64,000 nucleotides of DNA from Sulfitobacter indolifex (lineage in GTDB: Bacteria; Pseudomonadota; Alphaproteobacteria; Rhodobacterales; Rhodobacteraceae). The stretch is taken from NCBI RefSeq assembly GCF_022788655.1, contig NZ_CP084951.1:3100001-3164000 (forward strand), given 5' to 3'. Below, piece after piece: positions 12,471 to 26,505 of this stretch. Positions within the stretch are counted from its first letter, which is position 1. Every line of letters starts with the position of its first letter. The translations under genes and the position numbers were made by a program. Under the pieces are notes generated by a model. That model had not been told where the DNA came from. It ran no database searches and saw only the letters and a list, made by a program, of their open reading frames with translations.

Positions 12471-12541
12471 TAAGGCCCCGGACTTTTTAAAAAGTCCGGC
12501 CAGATTTCTTTGAAAGAAATCGGCACCTCTAGCTGGCCTTA
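12471..12541. repeat. Compound palindromic element (REP-like)
   Basis: Outer arms TAAGGCC (12471-12477) and GGCCTTA (12535-12541) enclose two further palindromes. The first is a perfect 22-base palindrome at 12478-12499, each half reading CCGGACTTTTT or its complement. The second is GATTTCTTT (12503-12511) with AAAGAAATC (12513-12521). The whole can fold as a three-way junction. Its form is that of a dispersed extragenic repeat rather than a simple terminator, because deaD already has one immediately upstream. No second copy was found in this window. Its right end overlaps the proposed TauR site. Confidence 0.65.
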
Positions 12542-12565
12542 AGGAACAAACCCATCTGGCACTAC
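12533..12565 (+). promoter_or_regulatory. Proposed TauR operator of tpa
   Basis: Direct repeats CTGGCCTTAA (12533-12542) and CTGGCACTAC (12556-12565), 23 bases apart start to start, lie 99 bases before the tpa start. They match the paired sites before xsc in sequence and exact spacing, and resemble the CTGGACTTAA/CTGGACCTAA repeats recalled for R. capsulatus TauR. The second repeat is the weaker match. Binding is inferred. Confidence 0.6.
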
Positions 12566-12663: not shown

Positions 12664-14061
12664 ATGGACGGCAATTTCAACGAGAACGACATCTCCCGCG
12701 TTGTCGAAGCCGACCGCGCGCACATCTGGCATCACTTGAGCCAGCACAAACCCTATGAAACCACCGATCCGCGCATTATTGTCGAAGGCAAAGGCATGCG
12801 CGTTTGGGATCAAAAGGGCAAAGAACACCTCGATGCCGTCTCTGGCGGTGTCTGGACAGTCAACGTGGGCTATGGCCGCGAAAGCATCGCCAATGCCGTG
12901 CGCGACCAGTTGATCAAGCTGAACTATTTCGCAGGCTCCGCAGGGTCGATCCCCGGTTCGCATTTTGCCGAAAAGCTGCTCGACAAGATGCCCGGCCTCG
13001 ACCGCGTTTACTACTGCAACTCCGGCTCCGAGGCGAATGAGAAAGCCTTTAAAATGGTCCGTCAGATTGCGCACAAGCGTTACGGCGGCAAAAAGCACAA
13101 GATTCTCTACCGCGACCGCGATTACCACGGCACCACCATCGGCTGCCTCTCGGCGGGCGGTCAGGATGAGCGCAACGCGCAATACGGCCCCTTCGCGCCG
13201 GGGTTCGTGAGGGTGCCACACTGCCTTGAATACCGCAGCTTTGAGCAGGACGGCGCGCCGCAAGAGAACTACGGCCCATGGGCCGCTGACCAGATCGAAA
13301 AGGTGATCTTGGCCGAAGGGCCGGAAACTGTCGGCGCGCTCTGCCTCGAGCCGGTGACAGCAGGCGGCGGCGTGATCTGCCCTCCCGATGGCTATTGGGA
13401 GCGGGTGCAAGAGATTTGCCGCAAGTATGACATCCTGCTGCACATTGATGAGGTCGTTTGCGGCGTGGGCCGGACCGGCACATGGTTTGGCTATCAGCAC
13501 TACGGCATTCAGCCCGATATGGTGACAATGGCCAAGGGCGTCGCCTCGGGCTATGCCGCGATCGCCTGTCTGGTCACCACTGATGCGGTCTTTGACATGT
13601 TCAAAGACGACGCCAGCGATCCGCTGAACTACTTCCGCGACATCTCGACCTTTGGCGGCTGCACCGCCGGGCCGACCGCGGGCATCGAGAACATGAACAT
13701 CATCGAGCGTGAGAACCTGTTGGAGAACACAACCAATATGGGCAATTACATGCTGGAGCAGTTGCACGCGCTGGCCGACAAACACGCAGTGATCGGCGAT
13801 GTGCGCGGCAAGGGGCTGTTTCTGGGGGCGGAGCTGGTCACCGACCGCGACAGCCGTGCCCCAGTTGAGGAAAAGCGCATTCAAGCCGTGGTGGGTGACT
13901 GCATGGCCCAAGGCGTTATCATCGGAGCGACCAACCGCTCGCTGCCGGGTAAAAACAACACGCTGTGTTTCTCACCTGCGCTGATCGCCTCGCGCGACGA
14001 CATTGATGAGATCATCACGGCGGTAGACGGCGCATTGGATCGGGTCTTTACCTCGGCGTAA
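12664..14061 (+). CDS. tpa: Taurine-pyruvate aminotransferase
   Basis: A 465-residue class III PLP aminotransferase that moves the amino group of taurine to pyruvate, giving sulfoacetaldehyde and L-alanine, the first step of taurine dissimilation. Seen: NSGSEANEKAFKM (PLP phosphate region), YHGTTIG, HIDEVVCGVGRTG, and the PLP lysine at about residue 291 in MAKGVASGY. The N-terminus MDGNFNENDISRVVEADR and DAVSGGVWTVNVGYGRES are those I associate with Tpa of Rhodobacteraceae rather than omega-transaminases in general. AAAGG at 12651-12655 is the ribosome site, and a TTCG-loop hairpin lies at 12629-12642. Its reaction product is the substrate of Xsc, 5 kb downstream. Confidence 0.93.
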   Translation: MDGNFNENDISRVVEADRAHIWHHLSQHKPYETTDPRIIVEGKGMRVWDQKGKEHLDAVSGGVWTVNVGYGRESIANAVRDQLIKLNYFAGSAGSIPGSHFAEKLLDKMPGLDRVYYCNSGSEANEKAFKMVRQIAHKRYGGKKHKILYRDRDYHGTTIGCLSAGGQDERNAQYGPFAPGFVRVPHCLEYRSFEQDGAPQENYGPWAADQIEKVILAEGPETVGALCLEPVTAGGGVICPPDGYWERVQEICRKYDILLHIDEVVCGVGRTGTWFGYQHYGIQPDMVTMAKGVASGYAAIACLVTTDAVFDMFKDDASDPLNYFRDISTFGGCTAGPTAGIENMNIIERENLLENTTNMGNYMLEQLHALADKHAVIGDVRGKGLFLGAELVTDRDSRAPVEEKRIQAVVGDCMAQGVIIGATNRSLPGKNNTLCFSPALIASRDDIDEIITAVDGALDRVFTSA

Positions 14062-14084: not shown

Positions 14085-14114
14085 AGGCAGCATTGGTTGA
14101 CCCGATGCTGCCTT
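14085..14114 (+). terminator. Hairpin after tpa
   Basis: AGGCAGCAT (14085-14093) pairs perfectly with ATGCTGCCT (14105-14113) across an eleven-base loop, 23 bases after the tpa stop. The downstream tract TCGTCTATTT is only moderately T-rich, so termination strength is uncertain. Confidence 0.5.
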
Positions 14115-14679: not shown

Positions 14680-15438
14680 ATGACGTTATTTGATATCGCG
14701 ATCCTAGTGATCGCAGCCTTCGGTGCGGGGGTGCTAAACACCATCGCCGGGGGCGGCACGTTTCTAACTTTTCCGGCACTGGTCTTCACCGGAATGCCCC
14801 CCGTGGCGGCCAATGCAACAAGCGCCGTGGCGGTGTTTCCGGGCTACCTTGCCGGGGCATTCGGCTTTCGCAATGAGCTGGGCGGATTTGACCGCAAGCG
14901 GCTTTTGCGGCTTAGCCTCATTACACTTTCGGGCGGGGCTGTCGGCTCTGGCCTGCTGCTGGTCTCCTCTAACGAGGCCTTCTCCATTGTCGTGCCCTTC
15001 CTCTTGCTCGCCGCGACGCTGGCCTTCCTTTTGGGCGACCGCATCCGCGCTTTCGCCGCCGCCCATGCCCGCGCTGTAACGCCCCAAGGCGCGCTCGGGC
15101 TTTTTGCGGTCAGCGTCTATGGCGGCTACTTCAACGGCGGTTTGGGCATCGTGCTGCTGGCCCTCTTCGCGCTTTGGGGGATGACCGATCTGCACGGAAT
15201 GAACGGGTTGAAAAACGGGCTGAGCTTTGTGCTCTCGTCGATCTCCGTTGCCGTCTTTGCACTGGCCGGGCTGGTCGCATGGCAGCAAGCACTGCTGATG
15301 ATGCTGGCCGCCACGGCGGGCGGCTATGCTGGTGCACCGCTGGCCCGGGCGCTGCCGAAACAAGCGGTGCGATGGCTGATCGCCGCCATCGGCTTTGGCA
15401 TGAGCGCGGTGTTCTTCTGGCGGCTTTTCGCAGGCTAG
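14680..15438 (+). CDS. TSUP-family permease (TauE/SafE domain)
   Basis: A 252-residue inner-membrane protein with about seven or eight hydrophobic segments. TSUP proteins move small anions, among them sulfite, sulfate, sulfoacetate and other sulfur-containing organic acids, usually outward. Family features are the first repeat GVLNTIAGGGTFLTFPAL with FTGMPPVAANATSAVAV, and the second repeat with YGGYFNGGLGIVLLA and HGMNGLKNGLS. GGGGAGGG precedes the ATG. It lies between tpa and the xsc operon, where a sulfite or sulfonate exporter would make sense, yet general YfcA-like members look the same, so the substrate is not assigned. It ends overlapping nagA by four bases, tail to tail. Confidence 0.85.
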   Translation: MTLFDIAILVIAAFGAGVLNTIAGGGTFLTFPALVFTGMPPVAANATSAVAVFPGYLAGAFGFRNELGGFDRKRLLRLSLITLSGGAVGSGLLLVSSNEAFSIVVPFLLLAATLAFLLGDRIRAFAAAHARAVTPQGALGLFAVSVYGGYFNGGLGIVLLALFALWGMTDLHGMNGLKNGLSFVLSSISVAVFALAGLVAWQQALLMMLAATAGGYAGAPLARALPKQAVRWLIAAIGFGMSAVFFWRLFAG

Positions 15439-16565
15439 CCGAGCACACGCACCGCGCCGCTTTCGGGATCGAAAAGCACCAAGGGCTGGTCCGCGCTTTC
15501 GATCCGGCCCAACCCCATGTGATCGCGCAACAGCGCCAGCGGCCCCGAGATCGCCCGCGCCAGTGCCATCTCCAACGGCTCCCCCACCGCGTGGGTCAGC
15601 GTATAGACCGCGCGGCCCATCTCCAAATCCGCCCCTGCCAAAGTGCCGTCCGCCAAGGTCAGTTGCCCGTTGGCCCGGTAAACCTCGCGCCCGTTCAACG
15701 TAAAGCTTGTGATATCCGATCCCGCCGTCGCCATGGCGTCGCTGACGAGGAAAATCCCCTCCGCCTTGGCTGCCAGCGCATTGCGGATGCTGGCGGGATG
15801 CACATGGATGCCGTCGGCAATCAGCCCCGCGTGGACCCCCTCACAGGCCAACGCAGCCCCGACCAAGCCCGGCGCGCGGTTGCCCATCTGGCTCATCGCG
15901 TTGAATAAATGCGTGACGCAGCAGGCACCCGCATCGAAGGCAGCCATACAGGTCTCATAATCCGCGTCACTATGGCCGAGCGAGACGATCACCCCCGCCT
16001 TAGACATCGCGCGGATCTGCGCGTTGCTGGTGTTTTCGGGCGCGACCGTGACCATGAGGTTCGGCAAGCGCGCCGCCGCGCGCAGGATCAGGGCTAGGTC
16101 AGCGTTGGTCATCGGGCGGATCAACGCCCCGTCATGCGCGCCCTTGCGCGCGATCGACAGATGCGGGCCTTCCAGATGGAGCCCGATGATACCCGGGACC
16201 GCTTCGACAATGGCCGCTACGGCTGCCTCGATGGCCGCTTCGGTTTTGTCAGGCGTGTCGGTGATCAAGGTAGGCAGGAAGCCAGCCACCCCTGTACGGC
16301 GATGCGCCTCAGCGATGCGGCGCAGGGTGGCCACATCGGGGCTGTCGTTGAACATCACCCCACCGCCGCCATTGACCTGAAGATCGACAAAACCGGGGCA
16401 AAGCACGCCTGCTGCCAACCGCTCCGTCGCCGTGCCTTCCGGCACCTCCTCGGGGGTGAGGATACGGCGGCTACCATCTTGCATCAGCGCCAGCACCTTG
16501 CCGGGGTGCAGGTACTTCCCGTCGTGGATGTCGACCCCGGTAAAAACCTTCACGAACTCGCGCAT
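15435..16565 (-). CDS. nagA: N-acetylglucosamine-6-phosphate deacetylase
   Basis: A 376-residue cytoplasmic amidohydrolase producing glucosamine-6-phosphate and acetate during recycling or use of GlcNAc. Seen: GFVDLQVNGGGG (entry to the barrel), HLEGPHLS with the metal-binding glutamate, SLGHSDADY, THLFNAMSQM and VSDAMATAG with the catalytic aspartate, all in family order. Its start lies inside the 3' end of the kinase gene upstream (16-base overlap), so the two are translated together. The kinase would make its substrate. No nagB or GlcNAc transporter is in the window. Confidence 0.92.
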   Translation of the reverse strand: MREFVKVFTGVDIHDGKYLHPGKVLALMQDGSRRILTPEEVPEGTATERLAAGVLCPGFVDLQVNGGGGVMFNDSPDVATLRRIAEAHRRTGVAGFLPTLITDTPDKTEAAIEAAVAAIVEAVPGIIGLHLEGPHLSIARKGAHDGALIRPMTNADLALILRAAARLPNLMVTVAPENTSNAQIRAMSKAGVIVSLGHSDADYETCMAAFDAGACCVTHLFNAMSQMGNRAPGLVGAALACEGVHAGLIADGIHVHPASIRNALAAKAEGIFLVSDAMATAGSDITSFTLNGREVYRANGQLTLADGTLAGADLEMGRAVYTLTHAVGEPLEMALARAISGPLALLRDHMGLGRIESADQPLVLFDPESGAVRVLG

Positions 16566-17452
16566 GGCAAAGTCTCCCCCGCTGCGGCCTTGCAGACCAG
16601 TTGAAACGCCCCATCGAGCGCCGAACCCCGCGCTGCGATCTGACCCGTCAAATGATCTCTCGGCAGGAACCGCGCGTAATGCGGGCCGATCCCGCCCAGC
16701 AAACAGAGCGGATCACCGGGCTTGAACTCCAGCGCTTTCAGCGCGCGGGTGTAATAGGCCGCGCCTTCGTGCATTAACGCCTCAGCATGGCGGTCCCCGG
16801 CCTCTGCCGCCGCGATGACTTTTGGCGCGAATGCCGCGTAATCTCCGGGGTGCGCCGTCAGGCTGAAGGCCACGAAGGCATCAGGATTATCGCCAAAATC
16901 CGCCATCAAAGCGCGGGTCAGATCGCTATGCGGCAACAACCCGTCATAGCATTGCAGCGCACGGTCTAGCGCCCCCCGCCCCAGCCATGCGCCCGACCCC
17001 TGGTCGGCCAGATGGAACCCCCAACTCCCGACATAGCGAAAGCCTGCGCCATCCGTTGCCGCCACAATCGTGCCCGTGCCGATGGCCAGCACCCAGCCCG
17101 CCACGCCTTCGCCAAGCGCGCCAACGACGCAGGCCGGGCGGTCATCATCAGCAATGATCCGGGCGTAGGGCAGTGCCGCGCGCAGACGCGCCTCGTCCCG
17201 CGCCACATTCATCCCTGCAAGGCCGACAAATGCAGTGGCATTCTCAAGCGCCGAGAGGGGCAACCCCGCCTCCGCTGCAGCCTCCTCAACCGCGCCGCGT
17301 ACATTCACTAAGGTATGGTCAGGGTCATTACCGATATTCGCACGCCCCCCGGATGCACGGCCAAGAATGCCATCACGCTGCGTGCCAATGGCGGCGCGGC
17401 AACCGGTGCCACCGCCGTCCACGGCGATCAAAAGGGGGGCGGAAATGCTCAT
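16550..17452 (-). CDS. nagK: N-acetylglucosamine kinase (BadF/BcrA ATPase family)
   Basis: A 300-residue sugar kinase with the ASKHA fold. AVDGGGTGCRAAIG at the N-terminus is the phosphate 1 loop, ATAFVGLAGMN follows, VLAIGTGTIVAA is the second phosphate loop, and GSWGFHLADQGSGAWLG is characteristic of the BadF/BcrA/BcrD family that includes GlcNAc and glucosamine kinases. The overlap with nagA supports GlcNAc as substrate (GlcNAc plus ATP to GlcNAc-6-phosphate). It is divergent from tauR, and the 116 bases between the two contain a proposed TauR-like repeat pair on this gene's strand. Confidence 0.82.
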   Translation of the reverse strand: MSISAPLLIAVDGGGTGCRAAIGTQRDGILGRASGGRANIGNDPDHTLVNVRGAVEEAAAEAGLPLSALENATAFVGLAGMNVARDEARLRAALPYARIIADDDRPACVVGALGEGVAGWVLAIGTGTIVAATDGAGFRYVGSWGFHLADQGSGAWLGRGALDRALQCYDGLLPHSDLTRALMADFGDNPDAFVAFSLTAHPGDYAAFAPKVIAAAEAGDRHAEALMHEGAAYYTRALKALEFKPGDPLCLLGGIGPHYARFLPRDHLTGQIAARGSALDGAFQLVCKAAAGETLPCASS

Positions 17453-17521
17453 GCGATACTTCTAGGCGAGGTGCCGGACGAACGGAAGTGCGCGCCGTGC
17501 GCCGATTTAATTCACCGCAAT

Positions 17522-17553
17522 ATAATGCCAGATTGAACTCCCCCTAGCGCCAG
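17522..17553 (-). promoter_or_regulatory. TauR-like repeat pair in the tauR/nagK intergenic region
   Basis: On the minus strand CTGGCGCTAG (17553-17544) is followed by CTGGCATTAT (17531-17522), 22 bases start to start. The first differs in one base from the first xsc repeat. It lies directly before the tauR start and upstream of nagK, so it could serve tauR autoregulation or nagK control. Spacing is one base shorter than in the other two pairs, and the second repeat is the weaker match. Confidence 0.42.
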
Positions 17554-17568
17554 CCTAACGTCGCCCCC

Positions 17569-19032
17569 ATGGCCCTGCCCGTCGAAACCTTTTTCCTGCG
17601 CCCCGATGCGCAAGGCACCCTGCAGCAGCAGATCCAACAGATGATCGCTCAGGGCATCCTTTCCGGTCGGTTTCAACGGGGCGAGAAACTGCCCTCGACC
17701 CGCAAACTCGCCGCTCACCTCGGCGTCAGCCGGATCACGGTGACCATCGCCTATACTGAACTGTTGGCCAACGACTACCTCACCTCAGCCGGGCGGTCGG
17801 GCTATTTCGTCTCAGACAACGCCCCCGCGCCCCCGGCCTTTGCCCCCCGCGCCGAGGCGGATGACGCCATCGACTGGACCCGCGCCATCGGTCAACGGTT
17901 CAGCGCCAATGGGCTGGCCGCCAAACCGCAGGATTGGGCCAGCTACCGATACCCTTTCATCTACGGCCAAGCCGACCCGACGCTTTTTGACCACGCGAAC
18001 TGGCGGCTTTGTGCGTTGCAAGCCTTGGGCCAGCGCGACTTCACCTCGATGACGACCGACTACTACGATCAGGACGACCCGCAACTGATCGAATTTATTG
18101 CCCGCCACATCCTGCCCCGGCGCGGTGTCTCGGCCCGGCCCGAGCAAATCTTGATCACCCTCGGCGCGCAGAACGCCCTATGGCTAACCGCCCAAGTGCT
18201 GCTGACCCAACGCCGCCGCGCCGTGTTGGAAGACCCTTGCTATCCGGCGTTGAGCGGCATCCTCAGCCAATCGCGTTGCCACATCACGCCGGTGCGCGTG
18301 GATCAAGATGGCCTCCCGCCCGAGGCGATCCCCCCCGATACCGATGTGATTTTTACCACGCCCAGCCACCAATGCCCGACGAATGCGACCATGCCGATGG
18401 ACCGCCGCCGCGCGCTTTTGTCCCGCGCCCGCGAGCTAGAGGCGCTGATCGTCGAAGACGACTATGAGTTTGAGATGTCCTTCCTCAAACCCGCCTCTCC
18501 CGCGCTCAAATCGCTCGATGATGAGGGAAGGGTGATCTATGTCGGCAGCTTTTCCAAATCGCTCTTCCCGGGGCTGCGGCTGGGCTATCTGGTAGGCTCT
18601 GAGCCGTTCATCCGCGAAGCCCGCGCGCTGCGCGCATCCGTGCTGCGCCACCCGCCGGGGCATATCCAGCGTACCGCGGCCTATTTCCTGTCGCTCGGCC
18701 ATTATGACGCCCTCATTCGCCGCATGGGGCTGGCGCTACACGAACGCCGCCGCGTGATGGAAGAGGCGCTTGAGACGCATGGTTTGCGGGTGTCGGGCCG
18801 TGGGGCTTATGGCGGATCGTCCTTCTGGATGCGCGCACCAGAGAGTGTGGACACGGCGCAACTGGCCGAAAACCTGCGCGCGCGTGATGTGCTGATTGAG
18901 CCGGGCCACGCCTTTTTCGCGGGCGAAGAGAAGGCGACGAATTACTACCGGCTGGCCTATTCCTCCATCCCCGCCGCGCGCATCGGGGAAGGGGTTGGTC
19001 TGATTGCCCAAGAGATTGACCGCCTGCGCTGA
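17569..19032 (+). CDS. tauR: MocR-family (GntR-aminotransferase) regulator, probably TauR
   Basis: A 487-residue regulator. An N-terminal winged helix of GntR type (about residues 10-75: MIAQGILSGRFQRGEKLPSTRKLA, LGVSRITV) is joined to a full fold-type I aminotransferase domain, with a PLP-binding lysine at about residue 330 in SFSKSLFPGLRLGY and VEDDYEFEM before it. MocR proteins bind DNA as domain-swapped dimers and sense PLP-linked amino compounds. Its position directly before xsc, and the repeats found before tpa and xsc, argue for TauR, the activator of taurine genes in Rhodobacteraceae. It would sense taurine, possibly as an external aldimine. Other MocR roles (GABA, PLP synthesis) are less likely here. 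Confidence 0.82.
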   Translation: MALPVETFFLRPDAQGTLQQQIQQMIAQGILSGRFQRGEKLPSTRKLAAHLGVSRITVTIAYTELLANDYLTSAGRSGYFVSDNAPAPPAFAPRAEADDAIDWTRAIGQRFSANGLAAKPQDWASYRYPFIYGQADPTLFDHANWRLCALQALGQRDFTSMTTDYYDQDDPQLIEFIARHILPRRGVSARPEQILITLGAQNALWLTAQVLLTQRRRAVLEDPCYPALSGILSQSRCHITPVRVDQDGLPPEAIPPDTDVIFTTPSHQCPTNATMPMDRRRALLSRARELEALIVEDDYEFEMSFLKPASPALKSLDDEGRVIYVGSFSKSLFPGLRLGYLVGSEPFIREARALRASVLRHPPGHIQRTAAYFLSLGHYDALIRRMGLALHERRRVMEEALETHGLRVSGRGAYGGSSFWMRAPESVDTAQLAENLRARDVLIEPGHAFFAGEEKATNYYRLAYSSIPAARIGEGVGLIAQEIDRLR

Positions 19033-19033
19033 T

Positions 19034-19066
19034 CTGGCCCTAGGGCTGGGCCACTTCTGGCCCTAA
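19034..19066 (+). promoter_or_regulatory. Proposed TauR operator of the xsc operon
   Basis: Direct repeats CTGGCCCTAG (19034-19043) and CTGGCCCTAA (19057-19066), 23 bases apart start to start, begin one base after the tauR stop codon and end 63 bases before xsc. The second differs in one base from the R. capsulatus TauR repeat CTGGACCTAA as I recall it. A possible -10 element, TAATTT, lies at 19087-19092, about two helical turns downstream, with no good -35, as expected for an activated promoter. Confidence 0.65.
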
Positions 19067-19129
19067 CCCCCGCCCGCGCCTGCCCGTAATTTGCTCGCAG
19101 CCTTGCCCCCACGCCCAAAGGATCGCCCC

Positions 19130-20905
19130 ATGAAAATGACCACCGAAGAAGCCTTCGTCAAAACCCTTCAGATGCATGGGATCGACACGGCCTTTGGCAT
19201 TATCGGCTCTGCCATGATGCCGATCTCTGACCTGTTCCCCGCCGCCGGGATCACCTTCTACGACGGTGCGCATGAGTGTAATTCTGGCATGATGGCCGAC
19301 GGCTTCACCCGCGCCTCGGGGCGGATGTCGATGATGGTGGCACAAAACGGGCCGGGCATTACCAACTTCGTGACGCCGGTCAAAACCGCCTATTGGAACC
19401 ACACGCCGCTGCTGTTGGTCACCCCGCAGGCGGCGAACAAAACCATTGGTCAGGGCGGCTTTCAAGAGGTCGAGCAGATGGCGCTCTTCCGCGATATGGT
19501 CGCCTATCAAGAAGAAGTGCGTGACCCCACCCGCATCGCCGAGACGCTGAACCGGGTGATCTTGCAGGCGAAACGCCACTCCGCCCCGGCGCAGATCAAC
19601 ATCCCGCGTGATTTCTGGACCCAAGTGATCGACATCGACTTGCCCGCCATAGTCGAGTTTGAACGCCCCTCAGGCGGCGAGACGGCCATTGCCGAAGCGG
19701 CAGAGCTCCTTTCGAACGCCAAATTCCCGGTGATCCTGAACGGCGCGGGCGTGGTGATCGGCGGGGCAATTGACGACGCGCGCAAGCTGGCCGAACGGCT
19801 CGATGCGCCTGTCTGCTGCGGCTACCAGCACAATGACGCCTTCCCCGGCTCGCACCCGCTGTCGGTCGGGCCGCTGGGCTACAATGGCTCCAAAGCGGCG
19901 ATGGAACTGATCGCCAAGGCCGATGTCGTGCTGGCGCTTGGCACGCGGCTGAACCCCTTCTCGACCCTGCCGGGCTATGGCATCGACTATTGGCCCAAGG
20001 ACGCCAAGATCATTCAGGTCGACATCAACCCTGACCGCATCGGCCTGACCAAGAAGGTCAGCGTTGGCATTGTCGGCGACGCGGGCAAGGTGGCCCGCAC
20101 GATCCTTGACGGGCTGAGCGACAGCGCCGGCGACGCGGGCCGCGAAGAAAGGCGCAACCTGATTGCGCAAACCAAATCCGCGTGGGCGCAGGAACTCACC
20201 TCGATGGATCACGAGGAAGACGACCCCGGCACCACATGGAACGAACGCGCCCGCGACCGCGAGCCGGAAAAGATGTCCCCCCGCATGGCATGGCGCGCGA
20301 TCCAGAAGGCGCTGCCGAAAGAGGCGATCATCAGCTCTGACATCGGCAACAACTGCGCCATCGGCAACGCCTATCCGACATTTGAAGCGGGCCGCAAATA
20401 CCTCGCGCCGGGCCTCTTTGGCCCCTGCGGCTATGGTTTTCCGGCGATCTGCGGGGCCAAGATCGCCTGCCCTGACGTGCCAGTGGTGGGCTTTGCCGGG
20501 GACGGTGCGTTTGGCATTTCGATGAACGAGATGGTCAGCGTCAGCCGCGACGACTGGCCCGCTGTGACCATGGTGATCTTCCGCAACTACCAATGGGGCG
20601 CGGAAAAGCGGAACACGACGCTGTGGTTCGATGACAACTTCGTCGGCACCGAACTCGCGCAGGACGTGAGCTATGCTGGCGTGGCCAAAGCCTGCGGCGT
20701 CGAGGGCGTGCAGGTGTCATCGATGGACGAACTGACCGACGCTTTGGACCGCGCGGTCAAGGCGCAGATGGAAGAGGGCAAGACGACCTTCATCGAAGTG
20801 CTGCTGAACCAAGAGTTGGGCGAGCCCTTCCGCCGCGATGCGATGAAGAAGCCTGTCTCTGTCGCCGGGATCAGCCGGGATGACATGCGCCCGCAACGGG
20901 TCTGA
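19130..20905 (+). CDS. xsc: Sulfoacetaldehyde acetyltransferase
   Basis: A 591-residue thiamine-diphosphate enzyme that desulfonates sulfoacetaldehyde with phosphate, giving acetyl phosphate and sulfite. It begins MKMTTEEAFVKTLQMHGI, as Xsc proteins do, with the catalytic glutamate in the HECNSGMMADGFTR region (about residue 50) and the ThDP/Mg motif VVGFAGDGAFGISMNEM near residue 460. NQEWGAEKRN-type sequence (NYQWGAEKRNT) follows. The ATG at 19130 has AAAGGA seven bases upstream; an in-frame upstream start is not family-like. ackA begins three bases after the stop, and the soe genes follow without gaps, so the operon couples carbon and sulfur ends of the pathway. Confidence 0.96.
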   Translation: MKMTTEEAFVKTLQMHGIDTAFGIIGSAMMPISDLFPAAGITFYDGAHECNSGMMADGFTRASGRMSMMVAQNGPGITNFVTPVKTAYWNHTPLLLVTPQAANKTIGQGGFQEVEQMALFRDMVAYQEEVRDPTRIAETLNRVILQAKRHSAPAQINIPRDFWTQVIDIDLPAIVEFERPSGGETAIAEAAELLSNAKFPVILNGAGVVIGGAIDDARKLAERLDAPVCCGYQHNDAFPGSHPLSVGPLGYNGSKAAMELIAKADVVLALGTRLNPFSTLPGYGIDYWPKDAKIIQVDINPDRIGLTKKVSVGIVGDAGKVARTILDGLSDSAGDAGREERRNLIAQTKSAWAQELTSMDHEEDDPGTTWNERARDREPEKMSPRMAWRAIQKALPKEAIISSDIGNNCAIGNAYPTFEAGRKYLAPGLFGPCGYGFPAICGAKIACPDVPVVGFAGDGAFGISMNEMVSVSRDDWPAVTMVIFRNYQWGAEKRNTTLWFDDNFVGTELAQDVSYAGVAKACGVEGVQVSSMDELTDALDRAVKAQMEEGKTTFIEVLLNQELGEPFRRDAMKKPVSVAGISRDDMRPQRV

Positions 20906-20908
20906 GCC

Positions 20909-22003
20909 ATGGCGCTGGTGCTCGTCGTCAACGCGGGATCGTCGTCAATTAAGACGGCGGTCTTTGACGGTGGGTTGAACGAGCGTCTGCGGATTGAGGC
21001 GCAGGGCATCGGCCAGACCGGCGCGCTGCTTCTGGGAGACGCTCCGCCGGTGCGCCTTGATCTGCCTGACCACCAGACCGCCTTCCGCGCCATTCTGGAC
21101 GGGCTGCGCCAAAAAGGGATTTCTGGCGCTGACCTGACGGCCGCCGCCCACCGTGTCGTGCATGGCGGCCCTAATCTGGCCGAGACAACGACAATCACGC
21201 CTGCCGTCCGAAGCGCCATCGCCGAGGCTCAACCGCTGGCCCCACTGCACAATCCGCACCACCTCGGCGCCATCGACGCGCTGGCAGCGCTCCTGCCCGA
21301 CCTGCCGCAGGTCGCCGCCTTTGATACCGGCTTTCACCGCAGCAACCCCGATGTCGCCCGCCGCTATGCTCTGCCCGACCGGGCAGAGACCGCCGCCCTG
21401 CGCCGCTATGGGTTTCACGGCATCAGCTATGAAAGCCTCGTACAGAATTTCCCTCAGACCACGGGCGCAGACCTCCCCCGCCGCCTGCTGGCGCTGCATT
21501 TGGGCAATGGCGCATCGCTCTGCGCGATCCTTGAGAGGCAATCGGTTGCCACAACCATGGGTTTTTCGCCGCTCGGCGGGCTGACCATGGGCACCCGAGC
21601 GGGTGAGATTGACGCGGGCGCGGTGCTGCATCTGGTGCGCGATGTCGGGCTGGAGGAGGCCCAAACACTGCTGCATCACGAAAGCGGATTGCTGGGCCTC
21701 TCTAATGTCACCGCCGATATGCGGCAACTGGCTGAGACCGATACAACCGCCGCCCGCTTCGCCCGTGAGCATTTCTGCTACTGGATCACTCGGCAGGCGG
21801 GGTCGATGATCGCTGCCATGAACGGGATCGACGGCATCGCCTTCACCGGAGGTATCGGCGAAAACGATTCCGAGGTGAGGGAAAAGGTTCTTGCAAACCT
21901 TAGCTGGGCGGGAAATATTCCCAATTGGATCATCCCCGCCGCCGAAGAGAAACATATCGCGCGCCAAGCGCTCGCCTTGCTGAAAGACCCAGCCCACCCA
22001 TGA
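20909..22003 (+). CDS. ackA: Acetate kinase
   Basis: A 364-residue ASKHA-fold kinase converting acetyl phosphate and ADP to acetate and ATP. Seen: LVVNAGSSSIKTAVF (phosphate loop), AAHRVVHGG, FDTGFHRS, RRYGFHGISYES and LHLGNGASLCAI, and late FTGGIGEND. It is somewhat shorter than the common 400 residues, mainly by short loops. Lying between xsc and soeA, it handles the acetyl phosphate made by Xsc. Most taurine degraders use phosphotransacetylase here; the acetate kinase variant, with acetate activated later by acetate-CoA ligase, has been described for Roseovarius sp. 217. Its stop overlaps the soeA start (ATGA). Confidence 0.94.
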   Translation: MALVLVVNAGSSSIKTAVFDGGLNERLRIEAQGIGQTGALLLGDAPPVRLDLPDHQTAFRAILDGLRQKGISGADLTAAAHRVVHGGPNLAETTTITPAVRSAIAEAQPLAPLHNPHHLGAIDALAALLPDLPQVAAFDTGFHRSNPDVARRYALPDRAETAALRRYGFHGISYESLVQNFPQTTGADLPRRLLALHLGNGASLCAILERQSVATTMGFSPLGGLTMGTRAGEIDAGAVLHLVRDVGLEEAQTLLHHESGLLGLSNVTADMRQLAETDTTAARFAREHFCYWITRQAGSMIAAMNGIDGIAFTGGIGENDSEVREKVLANLSWAGNIPNWIIPAAEEKHIARQALALLKDPAHP

Positions 22004-24816
22004 CGCATTCCCAGCCGCCGCTTGATCTGTCGCCCAAGGTCTCGGACGAGGTTCGCAAGACCACCTGCTACATGTGCGCCTGCCGCTGCGGCATCAACGT
22101 GCATATGAAAAAGGGGAAGGTCGCCTATATCGAAGGCAACCGCGACCACCCGGTGAACCAAGGCGTGCTCTGCGCCAAAGGCTCTGCGGGGATCATGCAA
22201 CACAACTCTCCCGCGCGGCTGCGCAACCCGATGAAACGTGTGGGCCCGCGCGGTTCCGGCGAGTTTGAGAGCATCAGCTGGAAAGAGGCGCTGCAGATCG
22301 CCACCGACTGGCTGGAGCCGCTGCGCCGCGAAGCGCCCGAAAAGCTTGCGTTCTTCACCGGGCGCGATCAGTCGCAGAGCTTCACCTCGCTTTGGGCGCA
22401 GGCTTTCGGCACGCCGAACTACGCGGCCCACGGCGGTTTCTGCTCGGTCAACATGGCCACCGCTGGCATTTACACGATGGGCGGTGCGTTTTGGGAATTC
22501 GGCCAGCCCGATTGGGATCACACCAAGCTGTTCATGCTGTTCGGCGTGGCCGAGGACCATGACAGCAACCCGATCAAGATGGGTCTGGGCAAGCTGAAGA
22601 AGCGCGGCGCGCGGGTCATCGGGGTGAACCCGATCCGCACCGGATACAATGCCATCGCCGATGAATGGGTCGGCATCACGCCCGGCACCGATGGGCTGTT
22701 TATCCTGTCGCTGATCCACTGTCTGATGAAGGCTGGGCGCATCGATGTGGATTACCTCGCCCGTTACACCGACGCCCCAGTGCTGCTGAACAGCGATCCG
22801 AAATCGCCGGAGTATGGCCTGCAACTGCGCGATGAGGACGGCAAGGCGCTAGTGGTCGACCGCAAGACCGGCAAGCTGACCCCCTTCGATCAGCCCGGCG
22901 TGCGCCCTGACCTTGCCGCCACCTACCGCACAGCAGGCATTACGCACCGCCCGATCTTTCACCAGATGGCCGAGCAATACCTTGGTGAGGACTACACCCC
23001 CGAAGCCGTAGCCGAGCGCTGTGGCATCCCCGCGCCGCGCATCCGCGCCATTGCCGCCGAACTGGCCCGCGTCGCCTTTGACGAAGCCTTTGAGCTTGAG
23101 CACGAATGGACCGACTTCCGCGGCGAGCATCACAAGACGATGACAGGCCGCCCGGTCTCTTTCCACGCCATGCGCGGCATCTCGGCCCATGCCAATGGGT
23201 TTCAAACCTGCCGTGCGCTGCATGTGCTGCAGATCATCCTCGGCACCGTCGAAGTGCCAGGCGGTTTCCGCTTCAAACCGCCCTACCCCAAGCCTGCCAC
23301 GGCGCACCCCAAACCACATTGCAAAGCCACCCCCGATGCGCCGCTGGATGGGCCGCACCTGGGCTTCGTGCATGGCCCGGATGACCTAGCGCTAAAGGCC
23401 GACGGCAGCCCGGCGCGGATCGACAAGGCGTTCACATGGGAAAACCCGATGTCGGCCCACGGGCTGATGCATATGGTGATCTCAAACGCCCATGCAGGCG
23501 ATCCCTACAAGATCGACACGCTGTTCATGTATATGGCGAATATGTCGTGGAACTCGTCGATGAACCCCGGCGGGGTGATGGAGATGCTGACTGACACCGA
23601 CGAGAATGGCGAATACGTCATCCCTCGGATCATCTACTCCGATGCCTATTCCTCGGAGATGGTGGCCTATGCGGACCTGATCCTGCCCGACACGACGTAC
23701 CTTGAACGGCACGACTGTATCTCACTGCTCGACCGCCCGATCAGCGAGGCCGACGCCGCCGCCGATGCGATCCGTTGGCCCGTGGTAGAGCCGAACCGCG
23801 ACGTGCGCGGCTTTCAGTCAGCGCTCTGCGATCTCGGGGCGAAGCTCGGCCTGCCGGGTTTCGTGAACGACGATGGCAGCCAGAAATACAAAGACTACGC
23901 CGACTACATAACCCGTCACGAACGCCGTCCGGGCATCGGCCCGTTGGCCGGGTTCCGGGGCAAGGACGGCAAGGATGTCGGACGGGGGGAGCCAAACCCC
24001 GAGCAGATTGACCGCTACATTGAGAACGGCGGCTTCTTCGTCAATCATATCCCGGAGGGGGCGAACTACTACAAGCCGTGGAACGCTGCCTATCAGGATT
24101 GGGCCGTGGGCATGGGCATCTATGACGCGCCGCAGCCCTACCTCTTTTCGCTCTACGTCGAGCCGCTGCGGCGTTTTCAATTGGCCGCCGAAGGTCATGG
24201 CAAACGCCAGCCCCCCGACCACCTGCGTGAACGGATCAAGCAGACCATGTCGCCCCTGCCGATCTGGTATGAAAGTGATCCGCAAGGCGCTGAGGGCTAT
24301 GGCGTCCACGCGCTGACCCAACGCCCAATGGCGATGTACCATTCGTGGGGCGGCCAAAACGCATGGCTGCGCCAGTTGCACGGGCACAATCCGCTCTACC
24401 TGCCCACCGCGATCATGCGCGCCAAGGGGCTGCAAGACGGCGACTGGGCGCGCGTGACCTCTCCGCACGGCGGGATCACGGTGCCGGTGATGGAGATGGC
24501 GGCCCTGAACCCCAAAACGGTCTGGACATGGAACGCCATCGGCAAACGCAAAGGCGCATGGGCGCTGGACAAGGACGCGCCCGAGGCGACCAAAGGCTTC
24601 TTGCTGAACCACCTGATCCACGAGTTGTTGCCACCCAAGGGCGATGGGTTGCGGTGGGCCAATTCCGACCCGATTACCGGTCAGGCCGCGTGGTTCGACC
24701 TCAAGGTGCACATTGAGAAGTCCGACGCCCCAGCAGAGTCGCAGCCAGAAATCCCGGCGCAGCGCTCTCCCGTCCCGCCCGCGCCGCAGGACATTGCGTG
24801 GAAGGTGGGCAAATGA
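22000..24816 (+). CDS. soeA: Sulfite dehydrogenase, molybdopterin subunit SoeA
   Basis: A 938-residue molybdopterin oxidoreductase, catalytic subunit of the membrane-bound, cytoplasm-facing sulfite dehydrogenase SoeABC, which oxidises sulfite to sulfate. CYMCACRCG at about residue 23, with a fourth cysteine in GVLCAKG, binds the N-terminal [4Fe-4S] cluster; the cysteine in HGGFCSVNMA (about residue 148) is the likely molybdenum ligand. No twin-arginine signal precedes the cluster, which fits a cytoplasmic location and separates it from periplasmic relatives such as PsrA/PhsA. The C-terminal MopB domain begins near TQRPMAMYHSWGGQNAWLRQ. It is fused by overlap to ackA upstream; soeB starts 49 bases downstream. 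Sulfite comes from Xsc. Confidence 0.92.
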   Translation: MTHSQPPLDLSPKVSDEVRKTTCYMCACRCGINVHMKKGKVAYIEGNRDHPVNQGVLCAKGSAGIMQHNSPARLRNPMKRVGPRGSGEFESISWKEALQIATDWLEPLRREAPEKLAFFTGRDQSQSFTSLWAQAFGTPNYAAHGGFCSVNMATAGIYTMGGAFWEFGQPDWDHTKLFMLFGVAEDHDSNPIKMGLGKLKKRGARVIGVNPIRTGYNAIADEWVGITPGTDGLFILSLIHCLMKAGRIDVDYLARYTDAPVLLNSDPKSPEYGLQLRDEDGKALVVDRKTGKLTPFDQPGVRPDLAATYRTAGITHRPIFHQMAEQYLGEDYTPEAVAERCGIPAPRIRAIAAELARVAFDEAFELEHEWTDFRGEHHKTMTGRPVSFHAMRGISAHANGFQTCRALHVLQIILGTVEVPGGFRFKPPYPKPATAHPKPHCKATPDAPLDGPHLGFVHGPDDLALKADGSPARIDKAFTWENPMSAHGLMHMVISNAHAGDPYKIDTLFMYMANMSWNSSMNPGGVMEMLTDTDENGEYVIPRIIYSDAYSSEMVAYADLILPDTTYLERHDCISLLDRPISEADAAADAIRWPVVEPNRDVRGFQSALCDLGAKLGLPGFVNDDGSQKYKDYADYITRHERRPGIGPLAGFRGKDGKDVGRGEPNPEQIDRYIENGGFFVNHIPEGANYYKPWNAAYQDWAVGMGIYDAPQPYLFSLYVEPLRRFQLAAEGHGKRQPPDHLRERIKQTMSPLPIWYESDPQGAEGYGVHALTQRPMAMYHSWGGQNAWLRQLHGHNPLYLPTAIMRAKGLQDGDWARVTSPHGGITVPVMEMAALNPKTVWTWNAIGKRKGAWALDKDAPEATKGFLLNHLIHELLPPKGDGLRWANSDPITGQAAWFDLKVHIEKSDAPAESQPEIPAQRSPVPPAPQDIAWKVGK

Positions 24817-24865
24817 CCGCCTCCCTCTGCTCCGCACCGCTTAAGACCCCTCAGGACATCCAGCC

Positions 24866-25630
24866 ATGACCACGCTCCCACAACAGACCGACCGCAAACT
24901 CGGCCTTGTGATCGACCTTGATACCTGTGTCGGTTGTCATGCCTGCGTGATCTCCTGCAAAGGCTGGAACACCGAGAACTACGGCGCGCCACTGTCAGAC
25001 CAAGACGCCTATGGCGCGGACCCGTCGGGCACCTTTCTTAACCGCGTGCACAGCTATGAGGTTCAGCCCGAAGCGGGTGCCGCGCAGCTCGTGCATTTCC
25101 CGAAATCCTGCCTACACTGCGATGACGCGCCCTGCGTCACCGTCTGCCCCACGGGAGCGAGCTACAAGCGCGTCGAAGACGGGATCGTTCTGGTCAATGA
25201 AAGCGACTGTATCGGTTGTGGTCTCTGCGCCTGGGCCTGCCCCTACGGCGCGCGTGAGATGGACGTGGCCGCAGGTGTGATGAAGAAATGCACCCTCTGC
25301 GTCGACCGTATCTATAACGAGAACCTGCCCGAAGAAGACCGCCAACCTGCCTGCGTGCGCACCTGCCCCGCTGGCGCGCGACACTTTGGCGATCTTGGCG
25401 ATCCGGAAAGCGCGGTAAGCCAATTGGTGGCCGAGCGCGGCGGTGTGGACCTCATGCCCGAGCAAGGCACTAAGCCGGTCAATAAATATCTGCCGCCCCG
25501 CCCGCGCGATCAATTGCAAAGCGCAGAGGACAGCGGCAAGATTGACATATTGGCGCCCTTCCTTGCCCCCATCGACAGCGGCCCCAAGGGCTTCCTCGGC
25601 TGGCTTGACCGCACTCTGGAGAAGCTCTGA
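24866..25630 (+). CDS. soeB: Sulfite dehydrogenase, iron-sulfur subunit SoeB
   Basis: A 254-residue DmsB/NrfC-type ferredoxin subunit carrying electrons from SoeA to SoeC. Four cysteine groups for four [4Fe-4S] clusters are visible: CVGCHACVISCK near residue 17, CLHCDDAPCVTVCP near 85, CIGCGLCAWACP near 118, and CTLCVDRI with CVRTCPAGA near 145-170. No export signal is present, consistent with a cytoplasmic site. The C-terminal 60 residues are less conserved and end in GWLDRTLEKL. The TGA overlaps the soeC start by one base. Part of the xsc-ackA-soeABC run. Confidence 0.94.
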   Translation: MTTLPQQTDRKLGLVIDLDTCVGCHACVISCKGWNTENYGAPLSDQDAYGADPSGTFLNRVHSYEVQPEAGAAQLVHFPKSCLHCDDAPCVTVCPTGASYKRVEDGIVLVNESDCIGCGLCAWACPYGAREMDVAAGVMKKCTLCVDRIYNENLPEEDRQPACVRTCPAGARHFGDLGDPESAVSQLVAERGGVDLMPEQGTKPVNKYLPPRPRDQLQSAEDSGKIDILAPFLAPIDSGPKGFLGWLDRTLEKL

Positions 25631-26505
25631 TGCATCCGGCACCTTCTGTTATCCTGTTCAGCAGCCTGTCGGGGCTCGGCTTTGGCCTGCTTGCATGGCT
25701 CGGCATCGGCCTACCTACCGTGACCGGCTGGGTGGCCTTCGTTTTCCTCGCGCTGGCTTACCTTTTGGCCGTGGGCGGGCTGATCGCATCGACATTCCAC
25801 TTGGGCCATCCGGAACGCGCGCTCAAGGCGTTTACCCAGTGGCGCAGCAGTTGGCTCAGCCGTGAGGCTTGGGCCTCGGTCGCGGCCCTGCTGACCATGG
25901 CGGCCTATGGCGCGGGGCTGGTGTTTTACGACACGCGGCTTTGGCCGCTGGGGCTGATCGGCGCGGCGCTGTCATTGCTGACGGTGCTGACCACGGCGAT
26001 GATCTATACGCAGATGAAGACTGTGCCCCACTGGCATAGTGTCATGACGCCGCTAAACTTCTTGTCACTTAGCATTGCGGGGGGCGCGGTGCTGGCCGGG
26101 CAAGTGACCGCGGCGATGCTGCTTCTCACGCTGGCGGGCGTGGTGCAGATCGTCACATGGTGGCGCGGGGATCAGGCGCTGGCGGCCTCGGGCACCGATA
26201 TCGCGACGGCGACGCGGCTCGGCAATATCGGCAGCGTCCGCGCCTTTGAGCCGCCGCATACTGGCAGCAACTATCTGCTGCGAGAGTTCGTTTATCAGAT
26301 CGGGCGCAAACACGCGCTGAAGCTGCGGGTGATCGCGATCACGCTGATGGTGCTGCTGCCACTGCTGCTCTTGCTCTCGCCCGTGTTCCACCACCTCGCC
26401 GCTGCCCTCGCGGTGCTCAGCCATGCAGCGGGGGTGCTGACCTCGCGCTGGCTGTTCTTCGCGCAGGCGGAGCATGTGGTCGGGATTTACTACGGCAAAC
26501 GCTGA
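25630..26505 (+). CDS. soeC: Sulfite dehydrogenase, membrane anchor SoeC
   Basis: A 291-residue membrane protein of the DmsC type with about eight transmembrane helices (for example near residues 8-30, 40-58, 80-105, 110-130, 145-185, 235-290). It anchors SoeAB to the inner face of the cytoplasmic membrane and passes electrons to the quinone pool. Family phrases include STFHLGHPERALKAFTQWRSSWLSREAW near the second helix and SNYLLREFVYQIGRKHA in a late loop. It is the last gene of the run; an inverted repeat follows directly. Length is normal for DmsC-like anchors. Confidence 0.9.
   Translation: MHPAPSVILFSSLSGLGFGLLAWLGIGLPTVTGWVAFVFLALAYLLAVGGLIASTFHLGHPERALKAFTQWRSSWLSREAWASVAALLTMAAYGAGLVFYDTRLWPLGLIGAALSLLTVLTTAMIYTQMKTVPHWHSVMTPLNFLSLSIAGGAVLAGQVTAAMLLLTLAGVVQIVTWWRGDQALAASGTDIATATRLGNIGSVRAFEPPHTGSNYLLREFVYQIGRKHALKLRVIAITLMVLLPLLLLLSPVFHHLAAALAVLSHAAGVLTSRWLFFAQAEHVVGIYYGKR

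Follow-up and report, generated by a model that had tools for sequence, protein, structure and literature searches.

The window, the whole 64,000-nucleotide stretch of Sulfitobacter indolifex DNA analyzed here, carries the taurine genes tpa and xsc and the gene of the regulator TauR between them, together with genes for acetate and sulfur metabolism downstream of xsc (Table 1). The tauR gene is clustered with tpa and xsc, as expected of a TauR regulator. Its product has a GntR winged helix (PF00392) followed by an aminotransferase class I/II domain (PF00155), both above the cut-offs, and its best PDB matches by sequence are GabR chains; a stretch FSKSL aligns with FSKSL of GabR, and its lysine is presumably the PLP-binding lysine. 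The tpa gene is named by its context, and for its product none of the 25 best-listed NCBIfam models exceeds the cut-off. A gene for a TauE/SafE-family exporter (PF01925) is located between tpa and nagA; no TauR pair of its own was found in the genome searches, and the protein could export sulfite. The three oxidoreductase genes at the end of the cluster are probably, as we take them, those of the SoeABC sulfite dehydrogenase. In PMC5573963, soeABC is listed as a sulfite-oxidizing enzyme.

Table 1. Genes and predicted regulatory elements of the taurine region, in positions of the window.
Feature	Position	Strand	Remarks
TauR operator (predicted) of tpa: CTGGCCTTA / CTGGCACTA	12533..12565	+	23-bp period; pair in 52/52 scored tpa regions
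tpa, taurine:pyruvate aminotransferase (class III aminotransferase)	12664..14061	+	named by context
Terminator-like stem-loop after tpa, 12 pairs	14085..14113	+	8 such in region vs 6.7 in shuffles
TauE/SafE-family exporter gene	14680..15438		PF01925
nagA and nagK, between tpa and tauR	15435..17452	-	nagK divergent from tauR
TauR operator (predicted) of tauR: CTGGCGCTA / CTGGCATTA	17523..17553	-	period 22 bp, opposite in direction to tauR; pair in all 80 scored tauR regions, 78 of them at 22 bp
tauR -35 element TTGAAC (predicted), between the two operator boxes	17533..17538	+	TTG there in 62/80
tauR -10 element TAACGT (predicted), 17 bp past the -35, 7 nt before ATG	17556..17561	+	TANNNT there in 62/80
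tauR, MocR-family regulator (GntR winged helix and aminotransferase-like domain)	17569..19032	+	domain and context
TauR operator (predicted) of xsc: CTGGCCCTA / CTGGCCCTA	19034..19066	+	23-bp period; 66/66 scored regions, 23 bp in 65
xsc -10 element TAATTT (predicted), 30 bp after the proximal box start	19087..19092	+	49/65 regions have TANNNT here; other offsets tried (24-39) give 0-5
xsc, sulfoacetaldehyde acetyltransferase	19130..20905	+	TIGR03457, 943.9 bits vs cut-off 676.4
ackA-like acetate kinase, directly after xsc	20909..22003	+	282.6 bits, below TIGR00016 cut-off 293.4
Three-gene oxidoreductase (molybdopterin, Fe-S and DmsC-type subunits)	22000..26505	+	bisC/hybA/dmsC of Suvorova and Rodionov

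Two direct repeats, CTGGCCTTAA at 12533 and CTGGCACTAC at 12556, are found upstream of tpa, and CTGGCCCTAG at 19034 and CTGGCCCTAA at 19057 upstream of xsc. Both pairs have a period of 23 bp from start to start and share the strand of the gene that follows (tpa ATG at 12664, xsc ATG at 19130), exactly where the original prediction had placed them when proposing that they are TauR operators. A pattern search revealed a third pair, CTGGCGCTA-N13-CTGGCATTA, on the minus strand at 17523–17553 upstream of tauR (17569–19032), with a period of 22 bp; this tauR operator is a site that the original prediction had overlooked. The box consensus of the pairs is CTGGCNYTA. When 9-base boxes separated by 9–19 bases are counted as paired matches, the window contains three, vs a mean of 0.01 and a maximum of 1 in 100 shuffles.

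The three pairs are also unique in the genome. In all 4,498,570 bases the pair pattern matches only at the tpa, tauR, and xsc sites, and the same three places alone are obtained with positions 5 and 6 left free, while the reversed-pattern controls give 0 (strict) and 1 (positions 5–6 free) matches; with these two patterns, the many unrelated hits that would have spoken against operators are not seen. A looser CTGGNNNTA pair occurs at 11 places, that is, the three operators, seven from a single tandem repeat (C1:915474-915650), and one other, against five for its backwards control. A form with a strict proximal and a loose distal box matches the xsc site alone.

Such elements resemble known TauR sites. 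TauR of Rhodobacter capsulatus binds direct repeats of CTGGACYTAA (Wiethaus et al., 2008, as cited in PMC5320631), and, as far as that account goes, its operators share with ours the direct repeats, a nearly identical consensus, and the taurine genes as targets, and differ in the fifth base, which is C in all six boxes here; the reversed third site at tauR is described here, the comparison with R. capsulatus being made through PMC5320631. The TauR regulons of Suvorova and Rodionov (2016; PMC5320631), in the passages available, list xsc, ackA, bisC, hybA, and dmsC, and agree with the present case in the motif, the two-box structure, and the members tpa, xsc, ackA, and bisC-hybA-dmsC. The window likewise has, upstream of its taurine genes, CTGGNCYTA-like boxes in direct pairs with a spacing of some two helical turns. 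The repeats before tpa, xsc, and tauR are very probably docking sites of TauR of a kind already described.

Conservation was scored in the best 80 of 565 confirmed loci (the named set), in which the closest locus is that of Sulfitobacter delicatus (L004; TauR 91%). The 200 bp upstream of each gene were scored with positions 5 and 6 ignored, periods of 15–31 allowed, and a threshold of at least 12 of 14. Regions were dropped if the gene was absent or truncated at a contig end, if its alignment began beyond residue 15, or if less than 150 bp lay upstream, leaving 80 tauR, 66 xsc, and 52 tpa regions from the 80 loci and the window. A pair reaching the threshold is present in every one of them (52/52 tpa, 66/66 xsc, and 80/80 tauR), and the conservation upstream of tpa and xsc orthologs on which the original prediction was staked is borne out. 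The period is 23 bp in 45 of the 52 tpa regions and 22 bp in the other 7, and 23 bp in 65 of the 66 xsc regions (the best pair of L075 has a different period). The tauR pair lies on the strand opposite to tauR, with a period of 22 bp in 78/80 and 23 bp in 2/80. Shuffled copies reach 12 once per set, and the other strand does so in 0/52 tpa, 2/66 xsc, and 1/80 tauR regions.

A second set consisted of one genome per genus, 80 of the 153 TauR-positive genomes, taken at roughly every second place of the identity-ranked matches listed; it partly overlaps the named set (the site letters of L145 are those of L083). A tauR pair scoring at least 12 is found in 60 of these 80 regions, in 53 within 20 nt of the start codon (27 genomes have no qualifying pair within that distance), and an xsc pair in 47 of 49. 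The periods of the 53 near tauR pairs are 22 bp (43), 23 bp (8), 21 bp (1), and 24 bp (1), and those of the 47 xsc pairs 23 bp (40), 22 bp (6), and 29 bp (1). Shuffled regions reach the threshold in 2/80 (tauR) and 0/49 (xsc) cases, and the tauR coding strand in 5/80. When only periods of 22 and 23 bp are taken and the others excluded, the second set gives 43 to 8 for tauR and 6 to 40 for xsc (Fisher p 5.5e-13), although such counts and p values overstate independence because relatives share ancestry and the two sets partly overlap. The 22/23 rule has exceptions: 7/52 tpa pairs and 6/47 second-set xsc pairs are at 22 bp, and 8/53 second-set tauR pairs are at 23 bp. In four loci (L172, L186, L193, and L200) the best opposite-strand pair has a period of 23 bp and lies 34–72 nt before tauR; it is perhaps the operator of a divergent gene.

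More distant relatives were reached by a class-wide search, in which 31 of 289 genomes have xsc (the own genome included); 31 loci were fetched from the other 30. The four same-family loci beside tauR retain both the 23-bp xsc pair and the 22-bp tauR pair. Farther away, a 23-bp xsc pair is seen in L104, L105, L113, L121, L127, and, weakly, L108, and a 22-bp pair before tauR in the distant L104 and L120. Most of the remaining distant loci of this search have neither an xsc pair nor a tauR pair.

In the aligned tauR upstream regions, TTG lies between the two boxes and TANNNT right after the tauR-proximal box, 17 bp apart, and the full TTG-N17-TANNNT signature is at its fixed place in 57/80 regions of the named set. 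The putative -10 element ends 5–8 nt before the ATG in these 57 regions, at 6 nt in 41 of them. In the window the operator ends about 15 nt upstream of the tauR start at 17569, and the -10 element is a weak hexamer that a consensus scan does not call. A TATAAT at 17521–17526 was set aside as the tauR -10, since it is not conserved whereas TTG-N17-TANNNT is. Furthermore, a Shine-Dalgarno match of at least four letters precedes tpa in 52/52 and xsc in 61/66 regions of the named set and tauR in 10/80, the shuffled rates being 28, 20, and 10%, respectively, so that tauR is near the level of shuffled sequence. The -35/-10 signature, which together with the scarcity of Shine-Dalgarno matches is what a leaderless mRNA would show, is present in 57/80 tauR regions of the named set but in only part of the second set (22/53). 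Because the -10 is so close to the ATG and no Shine-Dalgarno sequence is present, a leaderless tauR mRNA is predicted, and this would explain the nearly fixed distance from operator to ATG. Among the titles and abstract openings listed in literature searches, none joins TauR with leaderless mRNA or autorepression.

The second set divides further. Of its tauR operators, 32 are located 12–16 nt from the start codon, with the signature in 22/32 and a Shine-Dalgarno match in 4/32. Another 18 of the 80 regions (L152, L153, L159, L164, L165, L167, and others) represent a second class, in which no more than 6 nt separate the operator from the start codon; there the signature is found in 0/18 and Shine-Dalgarno-like letters in 15/18, the latter coming partly from the box itself, which can contain AGGT. 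The box in this class could overlap the ribosome-binding site.

The xsc promoter is arranged differently from that of tauR. Its -10 element is predicted at a conserved distance from the proximal box (Table 1), and the expected -35 slot, TAACCC, is non-consensus and overlaps the end of that box; a poor -35 lying on the proximal box is in keeping with activation through a polymerase contact at -35. At the offset seen for xsc, a tpa -10 element is found in 0/52 regions.

It is very likely that operators of the MocR-family TauR (17569–19032) serve activation of the tpa and xsc genes and autorepression of tauR, the latter transcribed as a leaderless mRNA; binding by TauR, both regulatory effects, and the transcription starts are predictions from DNA sequence. 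The two boxes of a pair, which point the same way and are spaced by some two helical turns, would be occupied by one TauR dimer in head-to-tail arrangement. At tpa and xsc, where the 23-bp pairs read with the gene, binding would lead to activation with taurine, and at xsc TauR bound at the proximal box over the -35 region would substitute for the -35 contact; taurine and TauR together would turn on tpa and xsc-ackA-soeABC. At tauR, the reversed 22-bp pair brackets the -35 and reaches almost to the -10; TauR bound there would keep RNA polymerase out. What began as a hunch about two sites thereby grows into a regulon of three operators and a circuit open to testing, in which the taurine genes are switched on and the regulator off.

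More tentatively, and with the odds rather against it, an operator code may be proposed, kept across roseobacters, in which a 23-bp in-line pair activates and a 22-bp reversed pair within the core promoter of a leaderless tauR represses. If this two-part code is true, a rule of one-base spacing and orientation decides whether TauR activates or represses. The conserved difference in spacing and orientation itself is an experiment made by nature, bearing on the way in which a MocR dimer bound head to tail may come to activate one gene and repress another. In the available passages of Suvorova and Rodionov (2016; PMC5320631), spacing is said to vary slightly inside one regulog, and a gene-dependent 22/23 spacing, an orientation rule, or a leaderless tauR is not described there; what is added here is the third operator and the rules of orientation, spacing, and leaderless transcription, as predictions. 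TauR of Sinorhizobium meliloti is reported to be an activator (PMC4254191). The regulator-and-target logic also has a parallel outside the TauR group. Bacillus subtilis GabR shares the MocR fold and direct repeats, and represses itself while activating its target gabT; unlike TauR it has a different ligand, and it operates from a single divergent region, while regulator and targets have separate operators here.

That TauR binds the tauR site but activates tauR or leaves it unaffected, the difference in orientation and spacing being inherited and meaningless, is unlikely. The exceptions to the spacing rule leave some room for it, as does the fact that tauR autorepression is read from sequence, yet boxes that flank the -35 and adjoin the -10 are in a blocking position, and MocR regulators are often auto-repressors according to PMC5320631.

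A similarly low probability is given to the third pair being a divergent operator that activates nagK-nagA, by which TauR would also control amino-sugar genes. The pair does read toward nagK and lies 70 nt from its start, comparable with 98 nt for tpa and 63 nt for xsc, and in the distant L104 and L120 the 22-bp pair is accompanied by an aminotransferase-like gene (29–30% to Tpa) in the nagK position. However, among the 80 loci, some of which are cut by contig ends, none but the window and L004 were found to have nagK-nagA there, whereas all 80 scored tauR regions carry the pair, and a crude ORF call puts the upstream neighbor of tauR in the same direction as tauR in 51/80. Since the nagK-nagA block was found only in the window and S. 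delicatus, nagKA is disfavored as the main target; the simplest reading is that the third operator belongs to tauR itself, and it looks older than the nagK-nagA insertion.

The pairs also follow TauR from genome to genome. A TauR relative was defined at E 1e-130 in 246 genomes of the family, "without TauR" meaning no match at that threshold. A pair with a period of 22 or 23 bp is present in 108/153 genomes with a TauR relative vs 3/93 without (p 1e-28), and the backwards pattern makes no difference between them (61/153 vs 37/93). Forty-five TauR genomes have no perfect pair under this strict pattern; many sites of the named set score 12 or 13 of 14. Three genomes, G300, G400, and G460, have a perfect pair and no TauR relative at E 1e-130; the letters in G400 and G460 resemble real operators, and a distant regulator or an incomplete assembly may be behind them. 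Position, genome uniqueness, conservation, and co-occurrence with TauR together strongly support the proposal of TauR operators before tpa and xsc.

A reading of the regulator as a vitamin B6 protein of the PdxR type within the MocR family, with the boxes as PdxR sites, is very improbable: although PdxR alone exceeds its NCBIfam cut-off (355.9 vs 320 bits) among the 25 best of 61 families, with no TauR model among those, the neighbors of the regulator are taurine genes, the three sites found in the genome are at taurine genes and its own gene, and the boxes are near the TauR consensus published in PMC5320631. Isolated boxes are present in the window as well (2 of 8 matches fall outside the three pairs), but chance or a general promoter motif can hardly produce pairs that are unique in the genome, conserved in position and register, and co-occurrent with TauR.

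The fifth base deserves separate mention, because C instead of A at this position had been taken as a sign of a lineage-specific operator. All six boxes of the window indeed have C, and the lineage idea itself is mostly rejected, with C and A mixed at position 5 in both sets. In the named set, the proximal box has C at 45/52 tpa sites and at 55/66 xsc sites, the xsc distal boxes are mixed (C 28, A 27), and 61/80 tauR distal boxes have A. In the second set, 37/46 xsc proximal boxes have C, and the 53 tauR pairs have A 25 and C 22 in the distal box and A 37 and C 11 in the proximal box. All of the 50 loci with three scored sites carry at least one C at position 5, and six of six boxes are C in three of the 50, namely, the window, S. 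delicatus, and the distant L082. The winged helix of TauR has no residue that separates the window and S. delicatus from the others; in the first 90 residues, only position 87, behind the winged helix, separates the two from nearly all others. Because C and A are mixed across the boxes of relatives, position 5 is degenerate, and six-of-six C is a mild trait of the species pair rather than a sign of a new specificity.

The expectation of hits before tauABC failed, as the strict pattern and the one with positions 5 and 6 free match no genome place beyond tpa, tauR, and xsc. The ald gene was not located. For TauA, TIGR01729 gives four matches in the genome, none over the cut-off; a tauA-like gene at C1:1505409 is assigned by its 61–80% identity to genes near tpa in relatives, and its locus (3.9 kb) has no pair. 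Among relatives whose tauA diverges from tpa, 34/36 scored cases have no pair directed toward tauA, L014, L016, L022, and L031 being left out for an odd tauA-tpa distance.

The operator of xsc begins 1 nt past the tauR stop codon, an arrangement found in 21/65 cases in all, the window included. In trees from which rows with a stop, an X, or a short match were dropped (96 rows kept in one tree), the Xsc proteins of the window and S. delicatus are placed apart from a nearly all-roseobacter Xsc clade of 65 rows (SH-aLRT 100), beside another family, f93 (support 91), and TauR and SoeA of the same two group among Sulfitobacter (support 89 and 88). An AU test of a single clade holding the window, L004, and 22 roseobacter rows gives p 0.42, which decides neither for nor against that grouping. 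The xsc gene may have been replaced behind a resident operator, and the transporter gene and the possibly foreign xsc are suggested to be tied to the regulator in different ways. Xsc of other Sulfitobacter (L016, L022, L097, and L098) forms a second divergent group, and a second xsc replacement in Sulfitobacter is possible. In G131 xsc is present in two related copies, of which only one has tauR beside it.
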